Source: Gelatoporia subvermispora B
Lineage: Eukaryota > Basidiomycota > Agaricomycetes > Polyporales > Gelatoporiaceae
Assembly (NCBI GenBank): GCA_000320605.2
Contig: KB445827.1
Coordinates: 49,829 to 104,989 of the forward strand
DNA: 55,161 nucleotides
Direction: 5' to 3'
Part shown: positions 13,038 through 53,392 of the stretch, one piece after another
Numbering within the stretch: the first letter of the stretch is position 1
Layout: each line of letters begins with the position of its first letter
The notes under the pieces: model-generated
Seen by the model: the letters and a program-made list of their open reading frames with translations, nothing else
Database searches by the model: none
Told to the model about the DNA's origin: nothing
Position numbers and translations under genes: made by a program

Positions 13038-16000
13038 ATGGACCTCCCAACATCCTCAGCACCGGTTCCACCAACCGCAATCGAGAATCCGTCTGCGGTA
13101 CGTCTCCGCAATCCAGCATATCCTAAGACGTTCTTGGGAGTTTTCTGACAGAGCCGTCTTCCTTTTAGATCGGGAGCTCTGAAGACGTTACACCTGGGCA
13201 AGACGTCCCGCTCAAAGAGCCTTTACACACGAACCCTGAACCTCAGCTTGAAGAAAAAGAGTCCAACATTCGATGCACATGTTCAACAGGCGGTAGGAAC
13301 CTCGTTGTCTGTATCGACGGCACATCGAACCAATTCGGTAAAAACGTACGCAGACACCCTCAGCTTGATCTCTCTCCACTCAAGGGTCTTGTAAACATCG
13401 AAACCATTGCCATATACAGAATACGAACGTCATCGAGCTGTATCGGCTCGTGAAGAAGCGGCCTGATGACGATCAGCTCACTTACTACAACAGCGGGATT
13501 GGGACATACGCCAAACCTTCGTGGAAGTCTCTTCACTATCTCAAGCAGGTTGTCGACCATAAGATTGATTTGGCTATCGCATGGTGCATGCAACCGTTCA
13601 CCTACTTGATCTTGTCACGATGGCTGACAAGTATACTTCCAGGAACTTCGAAACAATCGTCTTGAATGCATATCGATGGTTGTCAGACAAATACCGTGAA
13701 GGAGACAAGATATATCTGTTTGGTAACACGATGTGTCTCTATTCACAGGTAAATTCGCCTGACCGGACTTGTGGTACAGGATTTTCCCGGGGAGCATACC
13801 AAGTCCGGGTGCTATCTGCAATGATCAACAAGGTACGTATGTAGTAGATGACATTCGGTGACTGGTAACGTATGCTCATAGTACGTCTCTAGGTCGGCTT
13901 GATACATGAAGGAAACGAAGAACAGATTCCTTTGTAGGCCGTTCAATTTTGCGATGTGGGCCAATGTTGACTGGTTCCAGCGCATACGAGCTGTACGCGT
14001 CCTCCGGATCAGATGCCGAGGATTTGGGAGCGCAGCAGCGATGGAGATGGCGGGAGGGAGAAAAGAAGAAATCGGCTGTGAATGCCGCGGTGAGCGGTGC
14101 AGGGAGACGAGCGGACGAAGAGAAAGCTCAAGCTCCCAACCCAATGATTGACAGCAATAAGACTCCCCCCGCATCCGAGACTCCAGCCAGCCGGTTCAAG
14201 GCGACCTTCTCTCGTGATGTCAAGATTCACTTTGTAGGCGTGTGGTATGTTCGCGGTAGCGCGGTGATGTGGATACCAACCCATATTGACGAGGTATTTC
14301 ACAGGGACACTGTATCGTCTGTGGGGGTCGTGCGACACAAGGTGCTTCCTGACACTGCAAACGGGATGAAGCATGTTTGCTATTTCCGCCACGCGCTTGC
14401 TCTCGACGAGCGTCGAGTCAAGTTTCTCCCGGAGTACGTATATCAGGGGCTCTCGGAGTTCGAGAAAACAAAGGTTCGCGCTTCGCAGAGCGGATCTTCC
14501 CACACCAAGGAGGTTTGGTTCGTGGGTACACATTCAGACATGTAGGTGGAAGTTGTCGGTTCAGATTTGCGTACTAATTATTTGTTCCAGTGGTGGCGGA
14601 AATGTCAACAATGAAACGATGGATCGACGGGCTGCGCCACTACGATGGATGTTATACGAGGCGAGCGGCCCGGGCGGTCTGAAGCTCGACGATTGGAGCG
14701 TCAAACAGGAGCCCACGCCCAAGATTTATGAATCCCTGAAGGGGATATGGTGGCTTCTCGAGGTGATGCCGATTAAACATTTGTCCTACGGATCGCAATA
14801 TGGAACACGCAGAAGGTACGTATGTTCTCACACGGCGGTTGCACAGTCTGCGACATTCTAAACAATGAACAGATCACATTTGGGGGCCTCTCGTTGCATC
14901 AAGGACGGCCAGACGTTCCATAGCACCGTACTGGCATCTCTTGAGAACAAAGAGAACAGGTACACTCCTAAGGCAACAATCTCATGGCTCCCTGACTCCG
15001 GTACATATTGGGAGAACTTACGAGGCAGCAATGGAGAGGCGTGGCGCATTGAGCGAGACCTGTACGAGGTCGTGCGCGATGCCATCAAGAAGTTTGAAGA
15101 GAGACCTCAGGAACCCCAGGGCGGCGAGATTGTGTCAATCGACGACTTCCTGAAGAAGTTCGCAAATTGGTCGCGGACCGGTCAGTATAGTCCCTGACAC
15201 TTACAATATGCTGACAGTAACTTGTATTTGGATGCAGAGGAAGGACGTCGAGCACTTCGTGAGAACAAGGCAGTGGAGGCACTTCTAGAAGCTGCGGCGA
15301 GTGTTCTGGACCACCTGAAACCCGAACATTTGGACGCGCTATTGGATACTACCATTCAGATTGCTACTGCGATAGGCACAGAAACGGTGCCGCTGACGAG
15401 CGACTGCCTGCGCTTAATGCGCTTGCTCAGGGAACGCCCCCAATGGCCTCAACTCAGAGATCTCATTCCAAGTATGTGCCAGTTTTCTTAGACATGTATA
15501 CAGAACATCGACACCGTTTTCTAGTGGTACGGACTCTCTTCGTGCTCTCTGGGCATACTGAGGTAGTCCCGTCTGTCTCCATCTCACACGACGGCACTCG
15601 CGTTGCCTCCGGATCGTACGACAAAACAGTGCGCATCTGGGACGCGTCGACAGGAACAGCTGTTGGAAGTCCACTCGACGGGCACAGCGACGTCGTTCGG
15701 TCAGTAGCGTTCTCACCCGACGGCACCCATGTCGTCTCCGGCTCGGCCGACCGCACTATACGCGTTTGGAACCTGGAGACGGGGACCACCGTTGTCGGCC
15801 CCATCAAGGGACACACCGACGATGTGAACTCCGTGGCTTACTCGTCCGATGGCTTGCGAATAGTCTCTGGATCATTCGACGGGACCATCCAGATCTGGGA
15901 CGCAAAGACGGGCGCGGCCGTTGGGGAGCCGCTCAGAGGGCATCAGAACTGGGTGCGGTCTGTGGCATTTTCACCAGATGGCACCCGGATTGCATCAGGC

Positions 16001-16441
16001 GGACGCGACAGAACGGTGCGCATATGGGATGCGGCGACAGGGGCCGCGCTTGGGAGCCCACTCACCGGACATGATTCGCTGGTCTTGTCGGTAGCGTTCT
16101 CACCTGATGGCGCCCATGTCGTCTCGGGCTCGTGGGACGACACTATACGAGTCTGGGATGTGCAGACGGGGGCCACCGTTGTCGGCCCCATTACGGGGCA
16201 CACCGACAGCGTGTGTTATGTGGCTTACTCACCCGACGGCTCGCGCATAGTGTCCGGATCATACGACAGGACCATCCGGATCTGGGACGCAAAGACCGGG
16301 AAGGCCATCAGAAAGCCGCTCACAGGACACGAAGGCCGGGTGTGGTCCGTGGCCTTTTCGCCCGATGGTAAGCGCGTCGTTTCCGGCTCGCTTGATTGTA
16401 CGGTTCGAATTTGGGACGTCGAGGACCTCGTAGTGGAGTAG
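13038..16441 (+). CDS. DUF2235 (Tle1-like) hydrolase fused to a seven-blade WD40 propeller
   Basis: Twelve exons (13038-13097, 13169-13345, 13420-13583, 13643-13722, 13780-13832, 13893-13933, 13981-14244, 14305-14541, 14591-14815, 14873-15180, 15238-15471, 15525-16441) encode 919 residues. Residues about 63-460 are the T6SS Tle1-like/DUF2235 alpha/beta-hydrolase domain: NLVVCIDGTSNQFG at 64-77, nucleophile elbow GFSRGAY with Ser163, acid motif HSDIGGG with Asp358, and probable catalytic His450 in TFHSTV. The Ser-Asp-His set therefore looks complete. Bacterial relatives are phospholipases. After a helical linker, seven WD40 repeats (about 621-917) end the protein with an XWD motif in nearly every blade. 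No NACHT domain lies between them. No signal peptide is seen, so it is probably cytosolic. A propeller sensing a ligand and gating a lipase is inference. Confidence 0.88.
15547..16423 (+). repeat. Seven tandem WD40 repeats with a 387-bp higher-order period
   Basis: The blades are near-identical units of 129 bp. Blades 2-4 and 5-7 match best as triplets: the stretch beginning ACCGTTGTCGGCCCC at 15787 recurs at 16174, 387 bp (three units) later, each followed by a blade ending in ATCTGGGACGCAAAGAC. This points to recent duplication of a three-blade block. Variation is concentrated at a few codons per blade. Confidence 0.85.
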
Positions 16442-18029: not shown

Positions 18030-19800
18030 AACAGGAACGCGGGAGCTCTGGTAGTGAGCAGATCGGCAGCCCGACCTGGAGAAGAGCCCATGTAGGGGCG
18101 AGTGAGTGAGCACGAGCGAGCGCGGCTCGAGCCAGCACGCGGCGTGAGTCGAGCGCCGTCTCGATCGACCGATCTCAGATTGAGTTTCGCGCACACGTGC
18201 TCTATCACTTTTGGCTCTCGTTTTGCTCGACCTGCCTCGCTCCCGCAAAGGTCTCACCCCCACTCGTCGTCAACCTCTCTCGACCTGTACCCAGCCTCTC
18301 TGCGCATCCCAGGACGCCTCTCTTATATTATCTCCGTCCACGTCTCCAGGCCTGTATCTGCCCTTGCTAGGTCGACCCAGCCCTTGTCAAGCTGTCCAGC
18401 CAGCTTTCTCCAGCTTTCTCCCGGCCGACCAGCAGCAGCCCCCGAGATTCAGTCCGTCCTCCTCCTCCCCCTCATCTGCCCTGCTCAGCTCACCCAAATC
18501 CCCCACGCTACCACACTTCCGCTGCGCCTGACAAGCCTGGCAGCCCCCATCCGGGTATGTACGCCATCATGAGGGACGCTGGATTTCAATCACGCTCCTA
18601 GCTACCCATTCTCCTCGGAGGAATCGTCTCGCGCGAGGCACGCCGCGCATTTAAACCTCGTCTTCTCTACTCCCCGTTATGCCCGGCTTGACGACCGCCC
18701 CAGGATGTGTCACAACCGCTCACTTGCTTCCTCCCTGTGTCTCCTCATTCCTACCGCATGTGCCTCCTGCCGCTCACCCGACACCGCGCCGGGGTCAATC
18801 CCCGCATTTCCAACACCTGCTCCCCTGTGACGTTGCACACATTGGTCCTTCACCGACATCTTCCAGTGCCGATCCCGCCTCGCGCGCACGCCCCTCGCAT
18901 AGACTTAGCCGCTGACGGGACCTTCTACGTGCGACTCGCGCCCGATACCTCCTGCTTCGGCTCTTTCGCGCACAGCTAAAGCGCGTGCGCTCTGCGTGTC
19001 CTCCCAGCCACCACCGTTGCCCGGTCCTGCTCTCGGCGCGCGGCGCACCGCTTAGCTTCTGTTATCGGACCGCCGCTCCTCAGCACGGCCCATCACCCGC
19101 AGCGCCCAGTCATCGCCATGTCATCCACCACCACCACCCGCCCGACACTGTGCGCAGACACCCGCGCTCGCCCGCCGCCTCTCGCACCGCTGCAACGCAA
19201 TCTACGCGAATGACCGACGCGCAATTCCACGCATCGCCCAGGCCGAGTTAGGAGGAGTCTGCGAAGCACGCGGAGGGAGCTGCGAGGGCGACAGCACAGC
19301 GAAAGCGAGGGCAAATGAACGGGTGAGTCGTTTATCCGTCCTTTCCTTCCTTTCTACTCAGACTTGCACGCCTAGGAGCGACCGCCGCGTCACGCCCCAA
19401 CTCCTCGTGGCGCGACGATTGCGACTCACTGGCATCGGGCGCAGCATGGGCACCGCGCATCTCACTCACGCGCCCGCCACCCCCCCAGGCTCGATCGCTT
19501 CGCAGCGCCGCGTATATGCGCTCGACATCCCAGTACTCAGTCCCCCTCCCTCGGACGCGATCTACTACTGCCTAGCCCTCCCGCTCAGACATTCACACCC
19601 TCCCCACACCCGACAGGCCGCCCTCACGCCGTCCGGCCGTGCCGTGCAGGCCCACACTGGTACGCACTCTAGACCGCGCCGGTGTCCGGCCGTTGGACCA
19701 TCCCGCCGTCGGTCCGTCCTCGCGCCGTGCTCCCAGCCCACGCACGCACCGACTCCCGCCGTCCGTGCGTTTGCGTCTGGGTGTGTCCTGCAGGACAGGA
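18030..19800 (+). repeat. GC-rich dispersed repeat, copy C
   Basis: Matches copy A over nearly its full length and copy B over the first two thirds. Examples are 18165-18190 (CCGATCTCAGATTGAGTT), 18620-18710 (GGAGGAATCGTCTCGCGCGA), 18870-19150 and 19375-19530. It forms the upstream part of the second permease unit. ORFs are not conserved between copies. Confidence 0.65.
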
Positions 19801-20311: not shown

Positions 20312-22649
20312 ATGTCAACTATTCTGCCTACTCTTGCTCCCCAGAAGAGAGATGTGCAGAGCGACGACTCTAAGGGGGAGGGCCTCAGCCCAACTATCAG
20401 CATTACATCACTCCGCACACCCATCGAGCTCGGAACTCGCAAATCGTTCTGGCGACGACCGAAAGAGGGCTTAGACAGCATTGCGACACAAGCCTCTGTC
20501 TTTGACATTCCTGCAACTCTTGAGGTTTATCGTCCGGGACCAGCATACGAAAATGTGCACCGGTTCGATCCCGACGCTCGTTGGACCTGGCGTGAGGAAT
20601 ATGTAAGACAGACCGTTTTTCTGGCGCGTCATTCTACTCTAACGTCTTCTGTAGGCTATCGTGCGCAAGATTGACTGGCGGGTGATGGTCTGGGCCTTTA
20701 TCATGTACTTTGCCCTCAACCTCGATCGGTCAAATATCTCTCAGGCCAATACCGATAACTTCTTGCAAGACCTCCACATGACCACCAATGACTTCAATCT
20801 TGGAAACTCACTGTTTCGGGTATGCGTTGGAGAGAATGGGTAGTTGGGAGTATGGCCTTAACATTCTCGCAGCTGTGCTTCCTGATCGCCGAACTCCCTT
20901 CTCAACTGGTATCAAAGCGCATAGGTCCAGACATCTGGATACCCAGCCAGGTAGGCTAGTAGAGACGCTCTCATCTGCGCGGCTCATATTTTCCATCAGA
21001 TGGTGCTCTGGAGTCTAGTTTCAGGCGGTCAGTACTGGCTATCAGGCCGCGCTTCATTCCTAGCTACCAGGTCAGTTGACAGCTATCGAAAGAAATGATT
21101 GCGAACTTCATTGTTGCGCAGATGTCTGCTCGGCTTTATGCAAGGTGGATTCATTCCGGACGTAATCTTATACATGTCGTACTATTACACAAAGACCGAA
21201 CGTAAGTAGCCCACATATGCTCGACATGTATCTCAGCCGTCCGCTTGTAGTTCCAATTCGGATCGCATGGTTCTGGGTATCGTACGGCATGGCGACACTC
21301 GTTGGTGCTTTCCTTGCAACTGGCATTCTTCAGTTACGCCACGTTACTGGAAAAGCGGGCTGGAGATATCTGTTTCTTATCGAAGGCGTCCTAACGTTGC
21401 TAGTGGGATTCGCGTCTTTCTTCATGATGCCGCCAGGCCCGACTCAAACCAAAGCGTGGTATCGGCCAAATGGATGGTTCAACGAACGGTACACACTCGC
21501 ATCTCGAAGGTCTACAGTGCTACTAGCTCATGAAATGACAGCGAGGAGACCGTCATCGTCAATCGAGTTCTCCGCGACGACCCATCCAAATCTGACATGC
21601 ACAACCGGCAGGGACTCACTCTGAAGATGATGTGGAGCAGCCTCAAGGACTGGCGGATGTGGCCACTTTACGTCCTAGGCCTAACATTCATGAGTTCGTC
21701 TTCTCACAGCTCGTACTGCACATTAGGTCGTCTAATGTCTCGCATTCATCAGTACCCGTTACCCCTCCACAAACATACCTCACCCTATCACTGCGTGACC
21801 TCGGCTTCGACACCGTACAGTCCAACCTACTCACTGTTCCCTCAACAGTGCTCGGCATCGTCCTACTGCTAGTAGCTAGCTACGTCAGCGAGATCTGGGA
21901 GAGTCGTATCGCAGTGATTGTCGTCCTCCAGATCTGGGCGTTACCACTCCTTATTGCCCTATATACCTTCAACGAGCATACATCGCAATGGGTTTACTTT
22001 GTCGTGATTACCCTGATCACTGGTTACCCAAACACCCATCCTATCCAGGTCGCATGGGCTTCAACAAACTCCAACAGCGTAGGTACACGTACGGTTTCGG
22101 CGTCCATGTATAATATGTTCGCTCAGATGGGCACCATGATATCGGTAGGACCAAATCCTTCATTATGTACCTACGTCTCACATTCTCGCATCTGAACTAT
22201 TCAGTCATACGTCTACCGGGCAGATGATGCTGTGAGTCTCGTTGTTTTTCTGCCCGACTTCCGCTAAATTTATGCGCCTTGACAGCCGCTCTGTATGCTA
22301 TCACAGTGCCTGGTGGAGACGTGCTAGCTGACGGGCCCATCTGCAGACAAACGAGGTAACAGAGCGCTCATTGGGATTACCGTGTTGAACCTTGTCCTCT
22401 ACCTATTCACGTATTTCCTCTACCGGGGGATTAACATACGTAGGGATAAGATCTGGAGGTCTTGGAGTCCGGAGGTACGTCCAGAGGGCGTTGAGTGTCT
22501 CCACTCAAGGTTGACTCTGACTCTCAGGAACAAAGAAAATATCTTGATACAACGACCGACAAGGTACACATCCCACTCTGTCTTACGACGCCAGATGGCT
22601 CACATTACTACAGGGCAGTGAGAAAGTCAACTTTCGCTTTGCGTATTGA
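20312..22649 (+). CDS. MFS anion/allantoate permease (Dal5/TNA1-like), paralogue 2
   Basis: Exons: 20312-20602, 20655-20819, 20873-20950, 21000-21070, 21122-21201, 21251-21488, 21542-21693, 21753-22144, 22205-22231, 22286-22292, 22347-22474, 22528-22563, 22614-22649. The product is 566 residues, colinear with paralogue 1. The same permease signatures are present: [68 protein letters not shown]. Intron 7 is 59 nt here (60 in paralogue 1), which confirms it is a real intron because retention would shift the frame. The 7-nt exon 10 is kept. Differences are mostly conservative, so both copies are probably functional plasma-membrane transporters of unknown, possibly diverging, substrate preference. 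Confidence 0.9.
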
Positions 22650-30113: not shown

Positions 30114-31461
30114 CTATGAAGCGATGCCAAAAAATTCAAGCTCAAGCATGTCGAAAACAGGGATCAAGTGCGGAGCACCGACTGCAAGAATTGCCTCCAG
30201 ACGAGGTCCAAACGTGGCATTAAAATAATTATCGGGGAGATCCGGCTCGGTCATGTTCGATATCGGTGTGGTCGAGTAGCCAAAGATGTCTGCCCATTGT
30301 TTCACCTCCTCGAAGAGGTTATTCACGGAGACCGCGACGTCACTTGGCAAATTATGTTTGATTAGCGCAGTATTGTGCACTCAGTGTCATGTCAGACCTA
30401 CTTCGTTCCGTGCCACAGCTGCATTCTTGGATATTCTCCACTGAACCCGGGGAAGGCGTTGAGAACCTTTTGGGCCTGTCAAGAGCATTATTAGTGATTT
30501 CGGGGCCTTACTTGCATCGGACGTTCATACCCATTCGTTACCGGACAAGGATATGTTGCCCGCCAGACATGTGAGGTTGAGGCTGTCGGGTGGTCCATCT
30601 GGCACGGCGTTGCAACCGAATGGGACGCCGCCTACGGCGGAAGCAGCACTGAATATGTCCGGATACGCCCCAGCAAGAACGGTCGTCATCATTCCGCCAG
30701 ATGAGACGCCCGCCGCGAAGACACGGGTTGGATCGACACCCCAATTTGCGAGCGCGTAGCGGGCGGCTGAAGCAATTCCGAGAGAGTCACCGCCACCGTT
30801 GTGCATCAATGTGGCATTCGAGGAGACGTCCCAGCATCCATCCGGCCAGGGCGAACTAGGGAATAGTACAACATATCCGTACGTCTCCGAGAGCGGGGCC
30901 CATTTGGTGACGTTAAAGAAAGCCGGTGCGTCCCCACGGCAGACTGAAGTATTATCGGAAGTTAATTGAGGTATTTGCAAGAGACGAGATGTACAGAGAC
31001 ATACAGTGGGAGGCGACGACGAGCGGCGGGTTAGGCGCAACTACCTGAGGCCTGTAAACGAACATGCTGATGTTTGATGGATTGTCCCCAAAATTGGTGA
31101 TCTCGGTCAACATCGATGGTGGAATAGTATTGATTCCGGTCGGCGCACTGCTAGTAACAGTGCTTGTAGTACCGGGTGGCTTGCACACAGAAGCGGTCGG
31201 GGTAGCCCGAGCGGAAATTCGACCGCTGTTGGGCACGCACTGAAAGTAGTTCTTGTGTATGCGAGTACACGATGTGCCCACGACTAGGTGTGGGTCTCGC
31301 CTTAGGTCACGGACTCTCAATCCGAAGGGACGAAGGGACGTACCGCAATCGGTCGGGCCGCTCCATTCTATGCCACCGCACTGAGCCCATCGCTGCACTT
31401 GGCCAGCAGCAACGTGTAACAACGAAAGCATAGCTGCACAGGTAGCCGCAAATTTGACCAT
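30114..31461 (-). CDS. Secreted CE1 carbohydrate esterase (acetylxylan/feruloyl type) with N-terminal CBM1
   Basis: Five exons on the minus strand: 31461-31344, 31283-31005, 30943-30531, 30475-30402, 30342-30114; 370 residues. A signal peptide (MVKFAATCAAMLSLLHVAAG) is followed by a fungal cellulose-binding module, QVQRWAQCGGIEWSGPTDC continuing to GTSCTRIHKNYFQC (residues 21-58). A Thr/Ser linker leads into a CE1 alpha/beta-hydrolase from about residue 90. Catalytic residues are visible: Ser213 in GVSSG, Asp296 in LWHGTND, His353 in GAPHLIP. GCWDVSSNATLMHNGGGDS is typical of this family. The enzyme should be exported and remove acetyl or feruloyl groups from xylan while bound to cellulose. 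Acetylxylan esterase is the likelier activity. The nearest neighbour on the same strand (HLTF-like) is unrelated. Confidence 0.9.
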
Positions 31462-32333
31462 TTCTACTGATGCTGAATCGGAGGCGAAGGTGGAGAAGTC
31501 GAACTACGGGTTTTTATCGCGGGGTACAATTTGCGTCAATCGACCAGCAAAGCTATAGCCTGTGAACTTCCGGTATTCCTGGTAGCTTTCTGGCATCTTG
31601 AATCAATGTATCTCGACGAACAGAATGAGTCGCTCATGCTTGCTGTATGAAACAATCGCGACTTCTGCGGTCGATCGGACAGGCCCAACCAGTCTTCTCA
31701 CGCGTCACCTGACTGCATTCTCAGGAACGCGAAATAGCATGCATTGAACAAGTTGCAAAGGCCCGCATGTCCTCTGTGAGGCTAGGCCGGCACCTTCATC
31801 CCTAGTCGCTGCAGAAACCTTCTCAGACATTGTCATGTTTGAGATTGCTCAATATCACGCAGCCCACCGGGATAGTTTCTATTTCTGAAATCTATCAATA
31901 GACTTATCCATCCCCCAAAGGAATCCGGTTCTCTCGTAGCCATTATCATGCGCGATGCAAGGCGATGGACATGCGTTCAGAAGCACTAAATTGGACTTCT
32001 CCGAGCTCGTATCGGCGCAATGATTACATCAAAGGACCTGTCATTCGCTGCTATTGGGTACGACCTTTGTAGCTTTCGTAGCAGCTACGACGGAGGCTCA
32101 ATCGGTTCCGGCTCCACGCCTCATCGAGACGTGAAGTTGTGCGAGAGTATTTGACCAACGTAGCGAAAAGTTTCCTTCTTGACTCATGCTAGACTCTAGT
32201 CGGTGTATTTGACTTCAGCAGGCGAAAGGGATCAAAGCCAATGTGTAGTTCTAATGAAGCAAGGGTAACGGGAAGACAGATGAATTGGAATCAACTCAAT
32301 TCCAGGTGGACATGATCTACGAAACACCTGAGT
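31462..32333. other. Intergenic between esterase and HLTF-like gene
   Basis: Should contain the esterase promoter and the 3' end of the helicase gene. No coding signal was recognised. Confidence 0.5.
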
Positions 32334-41040: not shown

Positions 41041-43839
41041 ATGCACAGCCCCCAGCTGCTACAGCGAGCTGGCAAGAGGAAGCAGTCTCCTAGTGAGATC
41101 GCGAGTGACTCGCCTCCTTCCAAGGTACGAATCCAGGCGCCCACCATGGTTGATGTAGTCTCCCGCTGACGATATCTCGTAGAAGCCGTCGCGTAAAATC
41201 TTCACAGATTCGAAGGGGGAGAACATAGATGTCATTGTCTCAAATATACAGGAAGCCATTGACGTCACCATGGCTTGTACCAAGAACATTCCCGTTGTCA
41301 GTCAGATTCTACCTCCGCTCAAGGCAGTTGTTGACAGAATTGCGGCACGACTTCCTTGTTTATGGGACTACGACATTGAGCTAATTCTGCTTCAGAAAGC
41401 GAGGGCCAATGCACGTGACAAACAATATGTTTTAGACGACATCGACTCCCTTGTGAAATGCATTCAATCAATTAGCAAGAGTGTGCATTCAATTCCAACT
41501 GATCCACAGGGAAGCACGTCTGCGCCTGCACTTGATGCAACCAAACACGCCGATTCGTTGACCTCAGATGTGTCAGATATCATCAGGTAGCGCCGACCAT
41601 TTCTGGTACGTATCAGGGGTGCTGACGATATATCGCAGGGATTTAGAGACCCTGAAAGTCTCTGTAGAAGAAACGCCCAGCAGAGGTGGAATCAAGCGAG
41701 CAGTCTGCGCCGACCAAGACGCCGAGTTTATGAAGAGGGTGCGCAAGAAGATCTCCAGAGCGAGGGAGGACCTACAGGTACATTGCGCAGACCACTCGAG
41801 GAGGACATCTCTCACCTAATCGCAGATCCAAGATCTGCATGTGCTCAGGGCCATCCAAATGATCGCGCTTGATCAAGCTCACGCTCAGACGGCGTCACTC
41901 CAAGTAATGTTCCTTTTCCGTCTGCGGTGGTTCTCCCTTTCTGACACCTTGAGTGCATTGTAGAGCATGAAACAGCTCCAACATAGCATCGAGCACGAGA
42001 AACGGATGTACAACGCCAGTCAGCGTCTCAAAGGTAGCCTAATCATAGAGGCCATATACAGCATTGCTTACCGGTCGTATAAATAGACGACTATGATGTG
42101 TTGGAGAAGCTACAGCCGGTCAATGCCTCGTACAAGTCATACCTAACGGAAGGGAAAGCGCGCCTCCAGCCAGGTACACGTGCGCAGATCCTTCGTGATC
42201 TCGTTGAGTGGGTCCAGTCTAATCAACCAATACATCGCGTCTATGTGCTGCACGGCACCGTCGGTGTCGGCAAGTCCTCTATCGCGCATGCGCTGTGCCG
42301 ACAACTAGCCGGGACCAATCTCGGGGCCTCGTTCTTCTTCATACGAGGATCAATCTCGAATGTGCATACGCTATTCCCTACCATGGCGTTTCAAATTGCC
42401 GACTCCGTCCCTGAACTATTCTCTCCTATAGTACACGCCACTAGGGCTCACCTGCGCGGTGGGCAATGCCAGACATTAAAGCATCAAATTTCGGGTCTGT
42501 TGGAGACGCCATTCCAAACCATTGCAGCAGCATATAGCAAGCCAACACTGCTTGTTGTTGACGGCGCTGACGAATGCATGAACAGTCCGGACGGTGTTGT
42601 CCCGGAAATGCTTCAAGTTCTATGTCGTGCGGCCAGCAATATCCCCTTCCTCCGCATACTAATTGCTACTCGCCCGGAAGTCTACATTATGAATGCACTG
42701 CGATACTCCGACCAGTCCGGCATTATCCGATTCCGCGACCTTGGGAAGGAGCCGAATATTGACGATGACATTCGCCTCTTCATCAGGACAGAATTCGAAA
42801 TATACGCTGCTCAAGGAGGATTCTGCCTCGTAGTAGAACGCCCAGATGCAGTTGAGCTCCTTACAAGGCTCTCCAATGGTCTCTTCATTTTTGCCACCAC
42901 CGCAGTGCGCCACCTCGTTAAGAACAGGTATACAGCTGTCGCAGCGTTTGACAGCATCCTGATGTCACAGCCATCAAGTTCGTCACGACGACTTCTCGCT
43001 GGTCTTGACGCATTGTATAGGGAAATACTCAAGTGTTCCTTTATCGACGTCGCATCGGATGCAGAGCACATGGCAAGTATCGGTGCCGTTCTCCGGTGGA
43101 TAGCACTTTGGGTGTATAACGCTCCGTTCTCTGTAAGAGACCTAGAGTTGGTAAAAATATCCACCGATATCACTATGGACACTGTCGACCGCCTCCGGTC
43201 CGTTCTCATCGTCGACAACGATATCACAACAGCCAGCCAAATTCGGGCCTGCCACGCCAGCTTCCCTCAATTCCTCCTCGACAGCGCACGCTGCACCGAT
43301 CCCGCCTTCCTCGTCGACCCGCCGTCTGGGCATGCTATGATCGCCACCTCGCTGCTTGATCTCCTGGCCCGCGACGACGCCGACAGCCTGTGTGGTGCGA
43401 ATGTACACATGCAGAAGATGTGGGAGTATGCCGGAAGTTGCTGGGATGTCCATCTCTGTGATGCGCAATACACACCTGAGCTCGGTCGAGCGCTTTGGGG
43501 CTTCGTGAAGTCGCATCTGAAGGACTGGCTACAAAAGAAGGGCGCATGGAGCTTTGGCAGTATTAATGTGGTGCGCCTCGTGGACTACTGTGCAAAGGCT
43601 CACAGCTGGTGCAAGGTGGGCTGAAGTACACTTCTTGACCGGATTTGACTACACTGAGATGGCACGTCCAGCAGAACGGGCCTGATGATGAGCTCGTGGC
43701 AGCGCTCGACACGATTATTGACCGACGGGTCAAAGAGATTGTCGTGGAGGCCGCGCAATCGCCTTACAAGTACTTTGGTGATCCTGACCGGATCAAAGTC
43801 TGGGCAAAGAGGGGCTACATGCCGATAGAGGAGGATTAG
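41041..43839 (+). CDS. NACHT-domain NLR-like protein 1
   Basis: Seven exons (41041-41124, 41183-41586, 41639-41777, 41826-41903, 41964-42033, 42087-43615, 43672-43839) give 823 residues. Residues 1-250 are helical: GENIDVIVSNIQEAIDVTMA and IPVVSQILPPLKAVVDRIAA resemble the MLKL/HeLo-like N-terminal bundle found on agaricomycete NLRs. A conserved NACHT entry segment (NASYKSYLTEGKARLQPGTR) precedes the P-loop GTVGVGKS (315-322) and Walker B LLVVDGADEC (413-422), then FLRILIATRP. The C-terminus is a helical region ending in a 55-residue tail (KEIVVEAAQ, VWAKRGYMP). There are no WD40, ankyrin or TPR repeats. Expected to be a cytosolic ATP-dependent oligomerising switch whose N-domain may damage membranes. 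Inferred role: non-self or stress recognition. Confidence 0.85.
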
Positions 43840-44190
43840 GAAGAGGAAGAGGAAGAGAAGCCGGAAGACGAGAACGAACAGGATGCTGACCTTGGTTTCT
43901 TGATGCCATGTGCTATCTGCGATACCAATTTCCATCTCGTATGAGTTGCTATCGGTGTCTTGTAGGCGCATAGAGTGCCGCAGTCCGCGTTCTAGTGCGA
44001 ATGCTGCTATTTCAAAAACACGTAATAAGCGCTCATGAACTCAATAGTGCTCTCGTATGCTCTAGCCTGATCGCACAAACATGAATTCGATTTTGTGTGT
44101 CACCTATGTACACGGAGCGTATGTAGATGCTACAAGGAACACAGTGGGTGTGAATGGATTGGGGGACGGACGAAGCCAGTGGCCGTATCG
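43840..44190 (+). repeat. 3' flank shared with the second NACHT gene, copy 1
   Basis: Homologous to 51286-51690. Shared blocks include GATGCCAT..(G/A)CTATCTGCG, GTGTCTTGT.GGCGCATAGAG, TATGCTCTAGC and GTCACCTATGTACACGGAG. The first 33 codons after the stop align without an indel. The rest looks like 3' UTR and flanking DNA. Confidence 0.75.
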
Positions 44191-44559
44191 TTGGGTAGCG
44201 ATTGCACCATCGTCTGCTCACGGACTTTGAAGAATTATACGACACCACCAAATACATTCGTGTGGAGTCGATAATCTCCTACGCTGGAGCAGCACATTCG
44301 AGGAAGTACTCTTAGCAATAAATATATCTTATCTGCCACATACATACACAGAGCACACGGATACTGTCTGATGGACATCGCGCATGATGCGAGGGCTAGA
44401 GGAATCCACGAAGTTACCGAGGTTCGTACTGATCGATCATCCCATCGAGAACGCCACAATTCCTAAATCTATCTCATATTTTGTGTGTACACACGCAGTC
44501 ACAGCTCACATATCAGCTCTCGAGGTCGAGGTTTACATGCCCAGTGTCTGTACGCGTCT

Positions 44560-45355
44560 CAAAACGGAGAAAGTATATAAAAGACAGCTGTACCGCTCTG
44601 CGAGTCTCATGACGACGGGCTCGGGCCATCCGTAAAGCATGCCGAGAAGTAGATGACCTTGGCACATGTGCGACGAGGTGCATGTCTTGGAAGGGGCGAT
44701 GAGGAATTGGATAGAGCTGTCGGGGTCCTAGATGCCGCGTCAGTCTCCAGCATCAGCGCGCACTGCTTGCGTACGCACCTGGATACTCATCTTTGCCTGA
44801 TGCGTGATGTGCGTGAAGGATTCTCTCGTCAACGCGATTGCACGCAGCTGGCACGACGGCCCACTCATTCGATGCTCTAGAAGTTGACCGAGCGCGCTAT
44901 GAAAGTAACTACGCCCTGGTATCCCACTTGCCTCTGTCGGTAGCAGTTGTCTTTGAACAGTGTAGAAGTGTTATCCTTTGCGGCTTGTGGGTGTGGCCGA
45001 GCGTTCTAAGGTAGACCCACGAGGCTGCATACGTCTTCATGATGCAGAGCGCGTTCTCATTGGCGATGGGCGTCGTTATGTACATACACAGGACGTCAGC
45101 GAGGTAGAACGAGTTATAGATGTCGAGCTGCATCATGCCTGAGATGGCCTTCGGCGACGCGGGGCCCCGCAGAGCGGCGAATAGAAGCGAACACATAAGA
45201 GCCACACGGTCGGCGTCGTCCATGAGCACGACAACCGCGCAGAGGTTGATTGAGTCACCCGTCGTGGACTTCGCGTAGGATCGACGGTAACACATCCGAG
45301 ATATCTGTGCAGCGTGTGGAAACGATGAAGGGCGAGGCACATACAAGCGACACAC
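44560..45355 (-). CDS. Hypothetical minus-strand gene, structure uncertain
   Basis: A 148-codon frame (45355-44909) contains DDADRVALMCSLLFAALRGP and YNSFYLADVLCMYITTPIAN. Downstream on the same strand an intron-like element (GTGCGTACG near 44779 to CATCTAG near 44729) joins frames SFTHITHQAKMSIQ and DPDSSIQFLIAPSKTC, giving continuous coding-like sequence to about 44560. The link between the two parts is not clear: only a 36-nt GTAG..CTAG element is available. No family is recognised. It could be a decayed gene. Confidence 0.3.
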
Positions 45356-48300
45356 CCTACAAAGTGCTAGAGTAACAACTGCATATCCTCATCCGTGTTG
45401 AACGCCTGCGCGTGGGATGACTTCTTGACTTGTTCTTGACTTGTCGTCAGCGTTGTGCTCTTAAAGCATCCAGTACTCGAGCGAGATGGTGCTGCACGCA
45501 TTGGCTAGGTATAAGAACGTGAAAATAGGCGTTATCGCCTCCTTGTGTTTGACCGGGACAGAGAGCCGTGTTATCTTCGCCCACAGCGCCTGCTGACATT
45601 TGAGAGCGCTTGGAGCTGTGAGGGAGCGACTGGCTGAGGTGAGAGTCAGAGGGAGAGTCAGCATTTGTTATCAAGGGCATGCTGCAGAGATACGAACTAA
45701 ATTAGCATGTCTTGCCTCGCGCTAGCCTGAAGGCATCACTAGGGACATAAAAGAGGACAGTTGCTTTATTTTAACCTGATATTTTCCGAAATTGGCAAAG
45801 AACATTGAATCATTTCTCGCTATTTCTTCAGCATTACCACATCTCAGACATGGATCTATGCCCACGGTGCGTTGTACTAGGAAGGTAAGAGGACGTGCGA
45901 GCAGCCCCCGCTGCGGTCGTAGTCGACTTCCCCGGCCAGAGTCATGTCCTAGACGTCTCGGCGGACGCCGTCGAGACCGAGTGCAAGGCCGGAGGATACG
46001 GCCCGAGCATTTAGGGCAAGCGCAGTATGACGCCATAGCTCTGGCTTCGAGGACGCAGCATTTTTTGTGCCTTTGTCTGCTGCTCACGATCGCCCGCGAG
46101 CTCTCTGGCCGTCGCAACGCGTTTCCGCCGCTTCACTCTGGATCTGCTGGTACCATGACGTGCCCTCTGTGCGATCTTTACCTGACTTTCTATGGGGCCA
46201 TCTCGATGACAAGGCAGGCTCAGAGCTGGACTAATCCGGCGTCAATCTCTGCGGCATAAATGCGCTCCATGGACCCTCTCTAGGTGCTTGGGCTGGGCCC
46301 TGTCTGCCCTTCTGTCTTCGGTTGACCAGGTATCTGCATTCCGTGCGCTCAGACTCCTCCCTCTGAGCAGCAACATGGCTGAACGATCTTTGTCCCAGCC
46401 GGCACACTCATGTTTTCTTACTGGCTTCTTGTGCTTCTACGACGAGCTCACTACAACCCAGCAGACTGACGCTCGACTATTCAGATTCTGGAGGAAGAGA
46501 CACGGGTAGCCTCGCAGGTACGTTTTGTTCTATATACCCTCTCCTCTTTGATTTCTACAGCAAAGCCCGCTGTTTCCTGTTCTGTGTCCCCCGTTCTGTG
46601 ACGATACAAGGTCGCCCTACGGTTACCTCCAATCACGTCCGGGGTCTCAGTAGCCGTAGCAGACGGCTCACATCCGCCCTCTCCTGAGCTCCACTGCTTC
46701 GCTTCATTTGGATGACCTTCCGTTCTACGACTATACCTTTGGATAGAATCTCTCTTCAGGTTCTGGATCGTCGGATCGGATCTTATGTGTGGTAATGATA
46801 CCTGGTACCTGTCGCTCCTCTTGTACGCTGTTTTTCGGCACATGTACCTTAGTTCAGAAATTTATTGCGTTGCTGCCTATGTTCTGCGTGTTCTCTGGCT
46901 GTTCTATCCGGACAATATTTCTCTGCACCTTCATGTGAGCCATCTTGAGCCATCTTCCGGATCGTCCAACGTTGCGCTTTGGTCGGTCGTTTGACGTGCA
47001 TACTCTAATCTCAGTTCAACATTGCCGTCGCCTACGACAGATGTAGCGGCGCGTTACAAGCGCGGTCTCTCGCTCGACGCCTCAACCCGCGCCCGTTCAA
47101 GACGAGAGAACTGCGAGCGCGACTATCAGACGTATAGCCGGGTATGCTCTGAGCATTGAATGGGCTGAGTCTGGTGCGTTTGGTCGAAGCTTACCCAGTA
47201 TGTGCTTCTCTCAGACAGACCTTTGAACAGAGCAAAGAATAAAATATATTATATTCAGCGTGACTGACGTTCAGCCGAGCTCTATTCTGGCTTCTGCATC
47301 CGATTGCTACAATGCCCTCCTCTCGTCAGAATCGATCCGATCAGCGGCTCGATAGATGCCCGATCCCTAGCAGCATGTACATCGGAGTGCACGAGAGCGT
47401 ACCCAACGCTTGCATCGAGACGCGCGTGATCTGAGCACCAGAGGCACCGTGCGTACCGTAGAGCGGATGCCGAGGCGATGGTGTCCGCAGCCCCCGCTTG
47501 ATTACCGACGTGCATGTGGTTGGCTGTATGTGCCGTTGTTGCTGGCGGCTACGCATCCTGGTAGACGGACGCACGAGCACTCAGATTGCAGTGAAACCGA
47601 ATGCTTACGAGGTACGCACCTCTGTGACGAAGTGCGCGACTCCCGATCTATTGACCTGCTAGCACTTTGAGATGCTCAAAATCGGCACTGTCGTCCTCCT
47701 GAGTGATTGAGGTCACCCACGCAGTGAAAGCGGAGCTGGCAGTCGATCAATCCGGGTTGGGCTCGATCGAGACCGTATCGCGGAAAGAGCTCGTGTGATA
47801 TCCTGTACTAGCAGGTTCCCACTCCCATGAGAACTCATATGAGGACTTGGCCGAGCAAAGACAAGGATAGAGGGGGACTTGAGTGTGAGATGATTCTACG
47901 TACCTTGGACAGTCATCAGTGCGCCATCGTACATGTGTCGATTCTGGTCCTGTGCTGATCGCGTTCATCATCTTATGTTTCGCAGCATGTCTGTGAGAAA
48001 GGCCGGTGCTCATGGGGTCCGTCCGTCTGATTGTACTGCTGAGGTCAACAGCGATAGCGGGTGCAACCAGGTGAGATATGTCTCAGTCTCCCAATTGACC
48101 GCGTCGCGCTCATGCACACTAGGGCAAGTTTCAGACGTCGGATACTCGGGCGGTAACTCTAACCTGAGAGCTCGCAGAGATCACAATGTTTATGACACTC
48201 CGTAGATGGATGTACCACAAATATTAGATACCCCGTTGTGCCATGTGCTAAGCGATTAATCCCGTCAAGGGTCCCCTGGTAAGTGAATGGTACGCCGGTG

Positions 48301-48632
48301 ACAGCGTTCAATCGGTGAATTGGCACTCCTGCGGGAAGTGGATGATAGTATCCAAACGCAACCTGAGGCTCCTCAGACTCGAGCTATCCTTAGTGTGCTA
48401 ATAGATCCAGATCCAGTATTGACTGGGACTGCTAAATACGGTCCAGCAATAAGACTCACGTATTGCGGATGAGCGCTGCATACCAATCTGCAAGCGTGCA
48501 TTCATTCTGCTTCATCTCGCTCGAATGGGCGGCCTCGTGTCCACAGCATGGTACACTGCCTCATGCATGCGCTCTTCTGTGCGCTCAGCCCCCTCCATTC
48601 ACTCCATCCTCTGAGCAGCATATTTGATATCC
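45356..48632. other. Gene-poor region between the NACHT genes
   Basis: No firm gene. A minus-strand stretch near 46050-45880 has ACPKCSGRILRPC followed by a basic run. It vaguely recalls zinc-finger N-termini of agaricomycete transposon proteins, but no transposase follows. The rest has only short, non-conserved ORFs. Confidence 0.35.
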
Positions 48633-51285
48633 ATGTCGCAAGAGACTGACCCTCCGGGATGTGGATGTTGGAGGAAGGGTTCCCGAAGAGAGAGAAGAGA
48701 GGTCAATAGTCATCTCGTCCTTATCGCGCAGAGGACCTGACGTATGTCTGATTTGTAGCCTAGCGACGCAGCCGATGCGCTAGTATCCAAGCTCAAGGCT
48801 GCTCTCGACGTCGCAGACGAGATCCTGTCAGCTGCCCCCATACCGGGCGTTGCCTACGCAATGCCTGTATTGAAGAGCGTGGCGGAGCAAATATCTGTAA
48901 GCCGTCGCACAATCGCTCCATGAAATGTTCTGAATTTTCGCAGCTTATGAGAGCGAATGTCAAGACCAAAGAAGACGTGATTTCCAGGATACAAGCTTTG
49001 AGAGATCTTCTCGTCGCGATTGCGGAGGATGTGACCGCGGAGGTTGGGGCACTATCTCTGGTTGAGCGTAATCAAGCGGAAGGAGAGGTACAGCAGTCCC
49101 CGGTTGTCAAGTGGCGGATTAAGGCGTTCATAGAGTAAGACTCACCCAAGCTCGACTGTTCACCCCCATCTAAGCCGATATACAGGAGGTTGGAATTCAT
49201 ACGCAACTCTGCAGAGGCTCGCCAACGCATCAGATGGTATCAACGATTTTGGTTCGCGGAGCCAGACGCCAAGTTCTTGAAGGACCTTGGTCGGGATATT
49301 GACAACGCGAAGAACAATTTCGAGGTCAATGGTTCCTTATGACCGTGTCGCTATGTTCTTTACTGATAGCGATTTCTAGCTGGAGGGCTCTATTGAAATT
49401 CGAAAGCACGTGGTCGAGCTGGTCATGTCCACCCACGAGATTTGCAGGCAGATGAAGGAGAAAGGTGAAAACTCGGCCGAACCCATGAGAATATTGTCAT
49501 CTTACCAGATGAGGTCCATAGCAATGCAGGAAATTCTAGATGGGCTCAACCCGCTAATGCGTCATATACATCTGCCCTATTCGAGGAGAAATCACGTCTT
49601 CAAGAAGGCACAAGAACCGCAATCCGTGCCGATCTAGCCAAATGGGCAGTGGATGGCGATCCAGGCAAACGCATATACGTTCTATACGGGCAGGCAGGAA
49701 TGGGGAAGTCCAGTATCGCTCACACATTCTGCAAGCAACTTCAAGAGCAGCATTTCGTGTCATCTTTCTTTTTCCTGCGCGGACATGACGCCTGCAGCGA
49801 CGCATATCGCGTCTTTCCCACACTCGCATATCAGCTGGCAGACAGTGTATCAGACCTGCGGACCCACATCGTGGGCGTAGCCCGGAAACATCGAGCAGGT
49901 CACGAACAGCAACTAGATCGTCAGTTTAGGACCTTGATCCTCGACCCTCTAAAGGCCTTGGCGACATCCCCAGCTCCGCCCTCTGTAATCTTCGTACTCG
50001 ACGGTGTCGATGAATGCGCGAATGCATCAGACTCTGTTCCAACAGTGCTGCGGCTGCTGCGCGAGGGAACGCGCGAGATACCATTCCTTCGTATTCTCAT
50101 TGCCACGCGTCCCGAGACATACATTCTGGATGAACTACGCCCATCAGAAGATTCAGACACCATTCATTGGCGCGACCTGCAGAAGGAGGCGGACATAGAT
50201 GATGATATACGTCTCTTCATTGAGATGGAGTTCGAGAAGTGCAAGACAGCCGGGCAGTCCGACCTTCTGGATCGCCACCCAGATGCCACCGAACAATTGA
50301 CACGTTTGTCAAGTGGACTGTTCATCTATGCGAGCACGGTATTCAAGTACATCACCCAAAAGAAACACTTCGCGATCGAACGATATGAAGCTCTCTTAGA
50401 ATCCGATGATCGTCTTGACCCAGGGCAAGCATACCAGAAGCTCGACATGCTGTATGGAGAAATCCTCAAGTATGCGTTTGGCGATACACTAGGACACCCA
50501 AAGCAAATGGCTTACGCACGGCAGATGCTGTGCTGGCTAGTTGTATTCGAGCCGGTACCCGTGATGCAAAGACTGAATGCGGCTGAGCTCGAGATAGTCG
50601 GCGTCCCAACTTCCACTACGCTAGACGTCCTCGACGGTCTTCGGTCCGTCCTCATCCTTGATGGAGGCGTCCAACAAACCACTGAGATTCGGGCCTGCCA
50701 CGCCAGCTTCCCTCAATTTCTCTGTGACAGCGCCCGCTGCACCGATCCCGCCTTCGTCGTCGACCCGCTGTCTGGGCATGCCATGATCGCGACCTCGCTG
50801 TTTGATCTCCTAGCTCGCGACGACGTCGACAGCCTGCGGGATGCAAATGGGCACATACCAGAGATGTGGGAGTATGCCAAATGGTACTGGGATAACCATG
50901 TCCGTAATGCGCGATACACGCCCGAGCTCGGGCGAGCTCTGCGGGGCTTCGTGGAGATGCATCTGGAGAACTGGCTGCGAAAGAAGCATCCATGGGACTT
51001 TGGCTGGGATGTGGTGGCGCTGGTGGACGTCTGTGCAGAAGTTCACACCTGGTACAAGGTGGGCTGAAGTCCACTCCTTGACCGGATCGGCCTGCGCTGA
51101 TATGACACGTGCAGAAGAACGGGCCTGATGACGGGCTCGCAGCAGCGCTCGACACGATCATTGACCGACGGGTCAAAGAAATCGTTGCGGAAGCCGCACA
51201 ATCGCCTGACGAGTTCCTACATTTCCAACTTAAGCGGATTAACGTCTGGGCGAAGAAGGGTTACACACCGGATGATGAGGATTAG
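48633..51285 (+). CDS. NACHT-domain NLR-like protein 2
   Basis: Seven exons (48633-48701, 48759-48896, 48944-49134, 49186-49324, 49380-49464, 49530-51058, 51115-51285) give 773 residues. Intron positions parallel those of NACHT gene 1, and the sixth exon has exactly the same length (1529 nt). Residues 24-205 form an N-terminal helical bundle (LKAALDVADEILSAAPIPGV, VISRIQALRDLLVAIAEDVT), closely resembling the MLKL-type N-domain. P-loop GQAGMGKS is at 261-268, followed by Walker B VIFVLDGVDEC and FLRILIATRP. The tail encodes KKNGPDDGLAAALDTIIDRR and VWAKKGYTPDDED. There is no sensor repeat domain. The ATG at 48633 is the likeliest start because exon 1 splices in frame to the helical domain, but an upstream start is possible. 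Confidence 0.83.
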
Positions 51286-51690
51286 GATGAGGAAGAGGGA
51301 GGAAAGTTGGAGGACGAGAACAAATATAATGCTGGCCTTGGTTCCTTGATGCCATATACTATCTGCGGCAACATATCCCATCTCGTCATACGTTTGAGAT
51401 TGCAATGCATCCATGTCGGAGTCAACAGCCTCACGATGACATAAGCTGCTTTCAGTGTCTTGTGGGCGCATAGAGTGCTGCAGTCTGCATTCTAGTGCAA
51501 AGGCTGCTGCACCAAAAGGTCAAGATAACGACCCAAGGACTATATGGTATTTTTGTATGCTCTAGCATGATTGCACAAAGCTTAATTTGATCTCGTCTGT
51601 CACCTATGTACACGGAGTGTATGTCTATGATACAAGGAATGCAATGGGCGTGGACGGATTAGGGGATAGATGAACTCGGTGTTCGCATGC
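51286..51690 (+). repeat. 3' flank shared with the first NACHT gene, copy 2
   Basis: Counterpart of 43840-44190, with a local insertion of about 50 bp near 51390-51440. Similarity fades after about 51690. Confidence 0.75.
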
Positions 51691-53392
51691 TGGGTAGCAT
51701 CGGTCATGGAGCACCACCGCCCGTCCGCAAACTATGATAGAGCGATGAAAAGTAATCAAAGGTATCATTTGGAAGGGGCTGCTGGAACTCACCGTCACGC
51801 ATACAGTTTGAAAGGAGAGCCGAACGAAACTCGATCAACAGTGTACGGGACACTGGATGTATGCTAGCTCACGTACCTCCAATGCGCGCGCTGAACCCAC
51901 ACTGTGCCCCAAACTCCGACTCCATCCTGAACAACGTGTGACATTATTCATCGAAACCCAACCGCACGAGGGAAGGCTTGGAGTTCGATCGGGTGCTCGA
52001 CCTAGCATGTGACACCGACGTCGTGGAGTAAGGTGTATGGTGACCGGAGATCGGGGGATGTGCCAGACCGCGCGCATGCCATCGGGCAGCAACAGAAGCT
52101 TCTCGAGCGTCGAAGGTGCCGCGAAGCGAGTCTGAGGGATTGAGGAAGAGCGCCGTCGCAAGGCAATGACGCAGCGCTGTCCTCAAGCTGTTAGCGCTTG
52201 ATCACAGCATGACGCGTCCTTTCCGCGTCTCAGAGTCTGCTCCTTCCTGCTGCTCTGTGCTTTCCGAATTGTTGGAGGCTAGTGTAACCTCTCGACGCTC
52301 GAGGCCCACTACTGCGAAGTACTGTCAACATCATGTATATATCAACTGGCACCTTGGCCAGTCGCTCGACACGCACGCTCTGTCTCCGTGAGCGACGACC
52401 TTCGCGCGCTGCACTGCTCGTCGACGGCTCTCAAGCGCTTCAGCGGCAGCACTATAATCACGCCCCACCTCTTCTCCTCCCTCCTGTTGATCGCAGGACA
52501 CTCCCCAGTCCCGAATCTCTACCCCCTTTCCCGGAGCCTCAATCATGACCGCGATCGTCAATGCTATGACCCCCAGCACATCGGACATGACATGCGTCTG
52601 TCTGGAGGCGACAACACGGCCGATCGGTAGTGCAAGAGCATACCGGATATGACTTAGGGCTCCATACGTTTTTGGAACAAGACACTGTGGGAGCCGAAGG
52701 GTAGTGGAGAAGGATATCAAGGTGTGTCTATATCTAGCGTTTGATATACGGTTTGTGCCATGGCTATGCTAAGACGTAGAATGATATACAGACATTTGCA
52801 CTGGGATTTCAGTCAATTTGACATTCGGTTGAAGGACGCCAACAAGTTCCAGTCGTAGCTTAGGTGGTCCACGCACCTCAAGACGTACGGTCTGTGAGCT
52901 GTAATCAACCCTAGACCGACGGTCTCTCGGCTCCTGGAAAAGACTACTTGTGAAAGCCATCCCTGCACACACTTTCGATGAACCCGGTTCAGGACTCTCG
53001 TCCCTCTCGGACTGGTTGGACCCATCGATGCTCTACAAATACTGCACCGGCTTTGTGCCAGTGGAATAGGTATGTCTATCCTCGACGAAATAGGCCATTC
53101 AGCTGACGCACTTCTTCTGTGCGAAGTAAACAAGGCCGTAGTCCGTGACGACCGACCGTTCAACATTCATGCATCGGTTTCAGCATCGCAGCACCACATT
53201 CGATGCATTGGCAATTCAGGACTTGACGTCCCCCACCAGGAGAGACAGTGTCGGATTGCCGTATGACGCATCTACGAGCCCGACCTGAAGTGTTGGCATC
53301 AGACATGGGAGTGTGAGAGCTGGTAGCAGTGGTCGAGGCGTTTGTGATACCTCGGGACGAGCTCAGCTTGTGCGGGCGGGTGGAAAGGGTTT
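51691..53392. other. Intergenic, no gene recognised
   Basis: A plus-strand frame at 53072-53266 begins MSILDEIGHSADALLLCEVN and is mildly protein-like but unassigned. Nothing else is supported. Confidence 0.35.

Follow-up and report, generated by a model that had tools for sequence, protein, structure and literature searches.

Among NOD-like receptors (NLRs; NOD, nucleotide-binding and oligomerization domain) of basidiomycetes, about 600 MLKL-like sequences have been counted, and their N-termini are described as a four-helix core preceded by one additional helix and carrying a further, short one between h3 and h4 (PMC9815663; statements on this and the other papers cited by PMC number refer to the sections of them consulted). 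Effectors joined to a NACHT domain without WD40, ankyrin (ANK), or tetratricopeptide repeat (TPR) annotation are also on record, as the HeLo-like/NACHT/UNK rows in table 2 of PMC4986451. Here we describe two genes whose domain architecture is of this known kind, A and B, which a protein search identified as CERSUDRAFT_120240 (protein P0009) and CERSUDRAFT_127686 (P0001). They lie in a 55,161-nucleotide stretch of Gelatoporia subvermispora B (the window; C37:49829-104989 in a genome of 37.7 Mb). This species, also named Ceriporiopsis subvermispora, is a wood-decay polypore. Profile and genome comparison places both genes in an NLR clade without repeats that counts about 30 genes. Pairwise comparison within this clade showed that a 3′ module differs much less from paralogue to paralogue than the NACHT core does, synonymous and intron sites included, and we infer that gene conversion or a similar exchange keeps the module alike.

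A preliminary description of the window set A and B apart from most fungal NLRs, which it credited with sensor repeats. This applies to the ascomycete order Sordariales, where 67% of NLRs have canonical repeats (PMC12258605), but is not borne out in basidiomycetes, where WD, ANK, and TPR are found at 27, 9, and 8% of NLR C-termini; 52% of fungal NLR C-termini carry any Pfam annotation (PMC4986451). Adding up the percentages of PMC4986451 leaves about half of basidiomycete NLRs, or more, without an annotated repeat. For A and B themselves the absence of repeats was confirmed: Pfam returned no WD40, ankyrin, or TPR family in either protein, no place of these families lies beside the two genes among the matches listed for the genome, and a search of the window with one WD40 protein (E up to 0.01) gave no match downstream. 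Repeats hidden downstream of A and B were rejected on these three results; the open frames from the stop codon of B to the end of the window were listed without a domain scan.

The same absence extends to the relatives of B. The genome has 79 NACHT matches (PF05729). None of the 31 loci scoring at least 240 bits against B has a WD40 match within 6 kb downstream on its own strand, whereas at least 34 of the 48 other NACHT loci do. The comparison used 65 of the 150 listed WD40 places (at least one per array) and 58 of the 72 matches to B, and its WD40 counts are minimum values, 150 of 961 candidates having been scored; for ankyrin (177 matches in the genome), positions were taken from the matches listed. 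No WD40 match was found with one query (E up to 0.01) in loci L009-L046, of which L009-L038 extend 1.5 kb past the family match. Across the 37 distinct loci examined (L009-L038 and L040-L046; L039 repeats L035), a recognizable tail exon is present at 30, A and B included, being weak at L031 (E 4.6e-6) and L043 (6.1e-4); it is not recognizable at L029, L030, L032, L036, L038, L040, and L045. The tail starts 46-53 nt after the main-exon match in 28 of the 30 (query numbering), i.e., behind an intron in the same place, with L043 (58) and L044 (246) as outliers. Thirty is an incomplete count because some tail-like matches fall outside the 37 loci or form a second copy within a single locus. A second tail at C7:82644-82808 lies about 1.1 kb behind the first of L017, and C-terminal pieces were seen at C23:102048-102430 and C7:614118-614512; such extra matches may be stray copies of the exchanged module or the remains of genes.

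Relatives also exist in Obba rivulosa, e.g., P0008 (757 aa, same plan). Precomputed domain assignments list no repeat family for any of the 22 closest proteins, and the last residues align well with B in some of the 22 only. Further homology searches added 3 and 10 matches, all of them Gelatoporia proteins.

The two spliced NACHT genes proposed at 41041-43839 and 48633-51285 of the forward strand are indeed there, in tandem on one strand and 7.6 kb apart from start to start, and their paralogy shows in 333 identical positions among 790 aligned columns (42%). That they form a special pair was not upheld: in a clustered family of about 30 repeat-less members, two genes standing 7.6 kb apart in tandem are to be expected. 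A sensor/helper pair of the plant type, in which two diverged NLRs with split roles often lie head to head (PMC12258605), found no support either: A and B share one strand and one architecture and are two of about 30.

The contrast between core and 3′ module is visible in DNA identity along A and B. The two genes agree at 41-61% up to A 43270, at 75-85% from there to about A 44110, a stretch that takes in the arm, last intron, tail, and 3′ flank, and at 66% in the next window. The 3′ block of A (approximately 43200..44200, + strand) is accordingly nearer to B (66-85%) than is the rest of the gene (41-61%). That of B (approximately 50650..51750, + strand) comprises the end of the winged helix, the arm, the last intron, the tail, and the 3′ flank, and is common to A and, to about 51273, to a paralogue on C23. 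Compared with this C23 relative in 120-column windows, B is 90-99% identical in a 5′ block of flank, N-domain, and NACHT start (48099..49720, + strand, against C23:47463-49140), 44-55% identical at 50200-50670, and 82-87% identical over 50674-51273.

Synonymous sites show the same pattern in 24 tail-bearing members (a main-exon alignment of 28 sequences minus L029-L032). Mean synonymous difference (pS) was 0.71-0.80 in the core (B207-566) and, past it, 0.53, 0.48, 0.39, and 0.32 in four windows over B567-686, then 0.59. The C-terminal value was below that of the core in 273 of 276 pairs (A vs. B: 0.35 and 0.80); in 20 pairs the core was saturated (at least 0.6) while the C-terminal value did not exceed 0.25, and no pair showed the reverse. 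Core and C-terminus trees rejected each other (approximately unbiased test: P = 0.0007 and 3e-38). In the C-terminal tree (supports not printed), 21 of the 24 genes fall into groups that follow the genomic clusters: one joins A and B to three C23 genes, a second holds six genes from C7:51-105 kb, and a third has ten from C7:156-250 kb; L021, L023, and L027 lie outside. The last intron agrees: among the 22 genes that have it at a length of exactly 56 nt, ungapped identity over all pairs was 0.77 vs. 0.30 after shuffling, and it reached 0.91, 0.82, and 0.83 within the three clusters vs. 0.72-0.75 to others. A gapped comparison of intron and 3′ flank was uninformative (shuffled 0.72 against 0.80 and 0.72), hence the ungapped count for 56-nt introns.

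One property of the module weighs against a plain reading of these values: G+C content at third codon positions is 0.65-0.70 at B567-686 vs. 0.53-0.59 in the core, which may lower pS somewhat. The last-intron result is independent of codons and is not touched by this difference. Core pS too is smaller inside clusters (0.726 vs. 0.774 between them), so that the core also groups by location and the clusters share descent as well. The simplest reading is nevertheless that paralogues exchange the 3′ module, because selection on the protein does not explain a conserved intron. No window had nonsynonymous difference (pN) above pS, the ratio being 0.22-0.69 throughout, lowest at B597-626 and highest at B537-566 (0.69); diversification for recognition is therefore not demonstrated.

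The N-terminal domain had been described as MLKL/HeLo-like. A and B share it with the other members of the family, as judged by leave-out profiles: a profile of 16 other N-domains found that of A (E 4.7e-26; reversed 5.1), and one of 15 others found that of B (E 4.3e-40; reversed 0.27). In a search with the whole-protein profile, MLKL gave the six best of 78 PDB matches (E 1.2e-4 to 1.9e-3), and with a profile of 18 N-domains alone it gave the six best of 44 (E 5.9e-5 to 8.0e-4), HET-s being absent among these 44. The reversed control of the 18 N-domains returned 33 matches, the best of them a designed coiled coil (0.003) and none MLKL. Pfam MLKL_N matched 6 of the 18 N-domains (best E 8.9e-4; the table gives E-values without curated cut-offs), the most members of any family, other helical families matching one to three at comparable E-values; it also matched 4 of 25 whole proteins (best 0.064). 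In the AlphaFold2 models, the N-domain helices of A (exons in 41183..42033, + strand) are 38-60, 65-113, 126-156, a short 163-168, 170-193, and 195-248, and those of B (exons in 48759..49464, + strand) are 8-31, 37-53, 58-87, 91-103 with 105-130, a short 133-138, and 140-196. In both, the extra first helix and the short helix before the last long one fit the order described in PMC9815663.

Several results count against an MLKL relationship. The match spans one stretch of 65 residues, whose best single value is E 9.1e-4; the seventh PDB match is a designed coiled coil at 8.1e-4, level with the weakest MLKL row; and DUF6468, which matched a single N-domain member (6.5e-5), beats MLKL_N. Profile searches of A and B themselves gave no match to MLKL_N, HeLo, PigL_N, or Goodbye (E up to 1), the genome search placed no MLKL_N (PF22215) match at their loci (E up to 0.1), and MLKL is not among the listed fold matches of the whole-protein models, where the NOD dominates. 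As HeLo and MLKL_N do not match A or B, HeLo membership is unsupported and we use MLKL-like for profile similarity plus helix order. With this restriction, the profile searches showed the N-domain of A and B to be related to that of MLKL at profile level, and the domain agrees with BaMLKL, a published class of N-termini in basidiomycete NLRs. Before killing is ascribed to Goodbye-type bundles with an N-terminal extension, PMC9815663 itself calls for experiments.

Standalone MLKL-like effectors were looked for and rejected, the N-domain of B as query having matched exclusively beside NACHT loci. Pfam MLKL_N has four weak places away from NACHT loci, none above the cut-off; two of them, C19:75704-76030 and C21:404812-404955 (E 4.6e-4, below cut-off), are off the listed NACHT loci and are possible standalone MLKL-like genes.

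Behind the N-domain, both proteins score above the NACHT cut-off (A 30.7 and B 38.5 bits vs. 26.7), and NPHP3_N is also above its own. The P-loop (Walker A), located by sequence reading together with these matches, is encoded at 42254..42280 in A and 49688..49714 in B (both + strand). P-loop and Walker B are intact, as first thought: G254, G256, K257, D355, D358, and C360 are invariant, and E359 nearly so, in 25 aligned relatives. A winged helix follows the nucleotide-binding domain in both, and the region behind it is confidently helical in both models. The models align to Apaf-1 almost to their ends, but with a root-mean-square deviation of 6-7 Å over the whole alignment, which is a large value. 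The short tail noted in the preliminary description is a conserved exon in the paralogues, at 43672..43839 in A and 51115..51285 in B (both + strand, stop codon included); most likely it ends a helical arm like that of Apaf-1 before its WD40 repeats. The models place helices at 757-780, 782-785, and 789-798 in the tail of A, probably the last of its arm, and at 715-736 and 743-755 in that of B (predicted local distance difference test 80-95 over the block 711-760), where the same reading is probable.

Gene A (41041..43839, + strand) encodes 806 aa: the MLKL-like N-domain, the NACHT NOD with winged helix, and the helical arm with tail and stop codon, by translation and Pfam. Its eight exons are 41041-41124, 41183-41344, 41396-41586, 41639-41777, 41826-41903, 41964-42033, 42087-43615, and 43672-43839, and their translation equals deposited P0009 letter for letter. 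An alternative reading with seven exons and 823 aa retains a 51-nt GC-AG intron (41345..41395, + strand); the deposited protein has 806 aa because this intron is spliced out.

Gene B (48633..51285, + strand) follows the plan of A. Its deposited protein has 763 aa and deviates, at its N-terminal end and in the choice of main-exon acceptor, from a 773-aa model with exons 48633-48701, 48759-48896, 48944-49134, 49186-49324, 49380-49464, 49530-51058, and 51115-51285. Rival acceptors precede 49509, 49522, and 49530, and a short C-run lies at 49550-49552 (region 49509..49552, + strand). The deposited sequence, compared here at protein level (an exon-by-exon match was shown for A alone), implies a main exon from 49509, 21 nt before 49530. 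The acceptor implied by P0002, the deposited protein of the closest relative of B (contig C23), corresponds to 49522; in B it would give a main exon of 1537 nt and shift the frame, because the C-run is one C shorter than in that relative. This difference is either a real one-base variant bypassed through another acceptor or a base-calling error. The frame at the main-exon start thus depends on the acceptor, and B may be impaired or carry such an error, a point against the reading preferred below. The main exon of 1529 nt once reported as identical in the two genes holds for A, and for B only with the acceptor before 49530; equal exon length was accordingly dropped as proof of paralogy, which rests on the 42% identity.

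On balance we think it probable, though well short of certain, that A and B are ordinary members of a repeat-less, MLKL-like NLR clade with a homogenized 3′ module, acting as death switches and not as a dedicated sensor/helper pair. The resting protein would be an ADP-bound monomer closed by winged helix and arm, which are the main autoinhibitor of STAND (signal transduction ATPases with numerous domains) proteins (PMC6468293). A partner protein or other cue, felt on the NOD or the arm, would open it; since no repeats were found, sensing would fall to a separate protein or to NOD and arm surfaces. Multimerization could then gather the N-terminal bundles, whose action on membranes might be lethal to the cell or compartment, as with MLKL and HeLo-type domains. 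The nearest working model is CED-4, a STAND protein without repeats that is held by CED-9. The CED-4/CED-9 complex (2a5y) is among the listed fold matches.

Other readings of the clade would change the role of A and B more than their domain plan. They could be shared executioners in a network, triggered by NACHT-WD40 proteins of the same genome in the way that sensor NLRs trigger plant NRC helpers. The likeness of their core is common to MalT and Apaf-1 and says nothing on role, some 30 divergent helpers are many for one shared executioner, neither Pfam Goodbye (10 genome matches) nor PigL_N (none) falls at NACHT-WD40 loci, and no sensor gene was recognized beside A and B, so we consider this helper role unlikely. 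We give the same low credence to autonomous receptors in which the diverged NACHT core or the N-domain recognizes a cue (e.g., a protein of fungal or viral origin, or a hyphal fusion partner that is incompatible) and the homogenized arm is a shared lock only. In favor are the divergence of the core, set against an arm held in common, and the large size and clustering of the clade, which recognition families also show; diversity alone is not recognition, however, and no window has pN above pS, a weak test in the core because synonymous sites are saturated there.

Decay, i.e., NLRs stripped of repeats and drifting to pseudogenes while chance recombination keeps them alike, would account for the short longest frames at L042, L043, L044, and L046, for stops within several family matches (some where the match continues into an intron), and for the unusual acceptor that B requires. 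The longest frame is at least 505 aa in all 30 of L009-L038, however, and the pN/pS range, the NACHT motifs invariant in 25 sequences, and the equal-length, same-plan P0008 of O. rivulosa (though its tail matches B at 13 positions only) point the other way; decay appears very unlikely. A bolder proposal, which we hold to be quite unlikely, is that the clade inverts the usual plan of fungal NLRs: recognition repeats are absent, the arm and tail kept alike by gene conversion would let every member respond to, or assemble with others through, a single shared interface, and the diverged core, with swapped N-domains, would give individual specificity. If true, the clade would amount to a mix-and-match set of death switches without repeats, all governed by a single regulator. 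Because its members combine an intact NOD and an MLKL-like N-domain with a probable arm and a homogenized 3′ module, the clade is a defined set for asking whether the arm is a shared regulatory interface.

The rest of the window and genome holds other features. At 13910-16438 (+) is a Tle1-like hydrolase (T6SS_Tle1-like_cat, E 5.7e-18), and 0.7 kb downstream on the same strand is a frame with seven WD40 matches; the two are possibly one gene, an enzyme joined to a WD40 sensor without NACHT. Similar open-frame copies occupy 8717-9717 and 21166-22195 (+), one with a sub-threshold major-facilitator match (MFS_1, E 1.1e-6). GC-rich open frames with long common peptide stretches at 652-1170 and 5940-6455 (+), to which 18096-18572 looks related, suggest a repeated or mobile element. 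At 30525-31503 (-), CBM_1 (cellulose-binding) and a PHB-type esterase are in adjacent frames, as expected for a wood-decay fungus. Goodbye domains at C16:538138-590057 and on C13, C12, C17, and C6 lie mostly a few kilobases from ankyrin arrays with no PF05729 match there, and are perhaps another NLR-like class.

Apaf-1 and CED-4, both STAND switches of cell death, carry a CARD where A and B have the MLKL-like bundle. In Apaf-1, WD40 repeats stand behind the arm, whereas no repeats were found in A and B. The BaMLKL NLRs of PMC9815663 share with A and B the MLKL-like bundle and extra first helix at the N-terminus of an agaricomycete NLR, but the clade of A and B, its tail exon, and its homogenized arm are not described in the sections consulted. 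In PMC4986451, UNK means unannotated; the C-terminus of A and B can instead be read as winged helix, arm, and conserved tail. A repeat-less clade with a homogenized arm-tail and a diverging NACHT core was undescribed in the literature searched (Gelatoporia/Ceriporiopsis subvermispora, repeat-less fungal NLRs, NLR gene conversion), and the same arm-tail homogenization was not found in the consulted parts of PMC4986451, PMC9815663, PMC12258605, PMC10197012, PMC1805685, and PMC6468293. The closest parallel is the HNWD family of Podospora (het-d, het-e; PMC1805685), where, as in the clade of A and B, one module is in concerted evolution and the NACHT domain is more divergent. The exchanged module of HNWD is the WD40 sensor, and exchange feeds its diversity, whereas that of A and B is arm plus tail, with no repeats found. 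Concerted evolution on the arm here, against WD40 in Podospora (PMC1805685), would separate exchange that diversifies from exchange that keeps alike.

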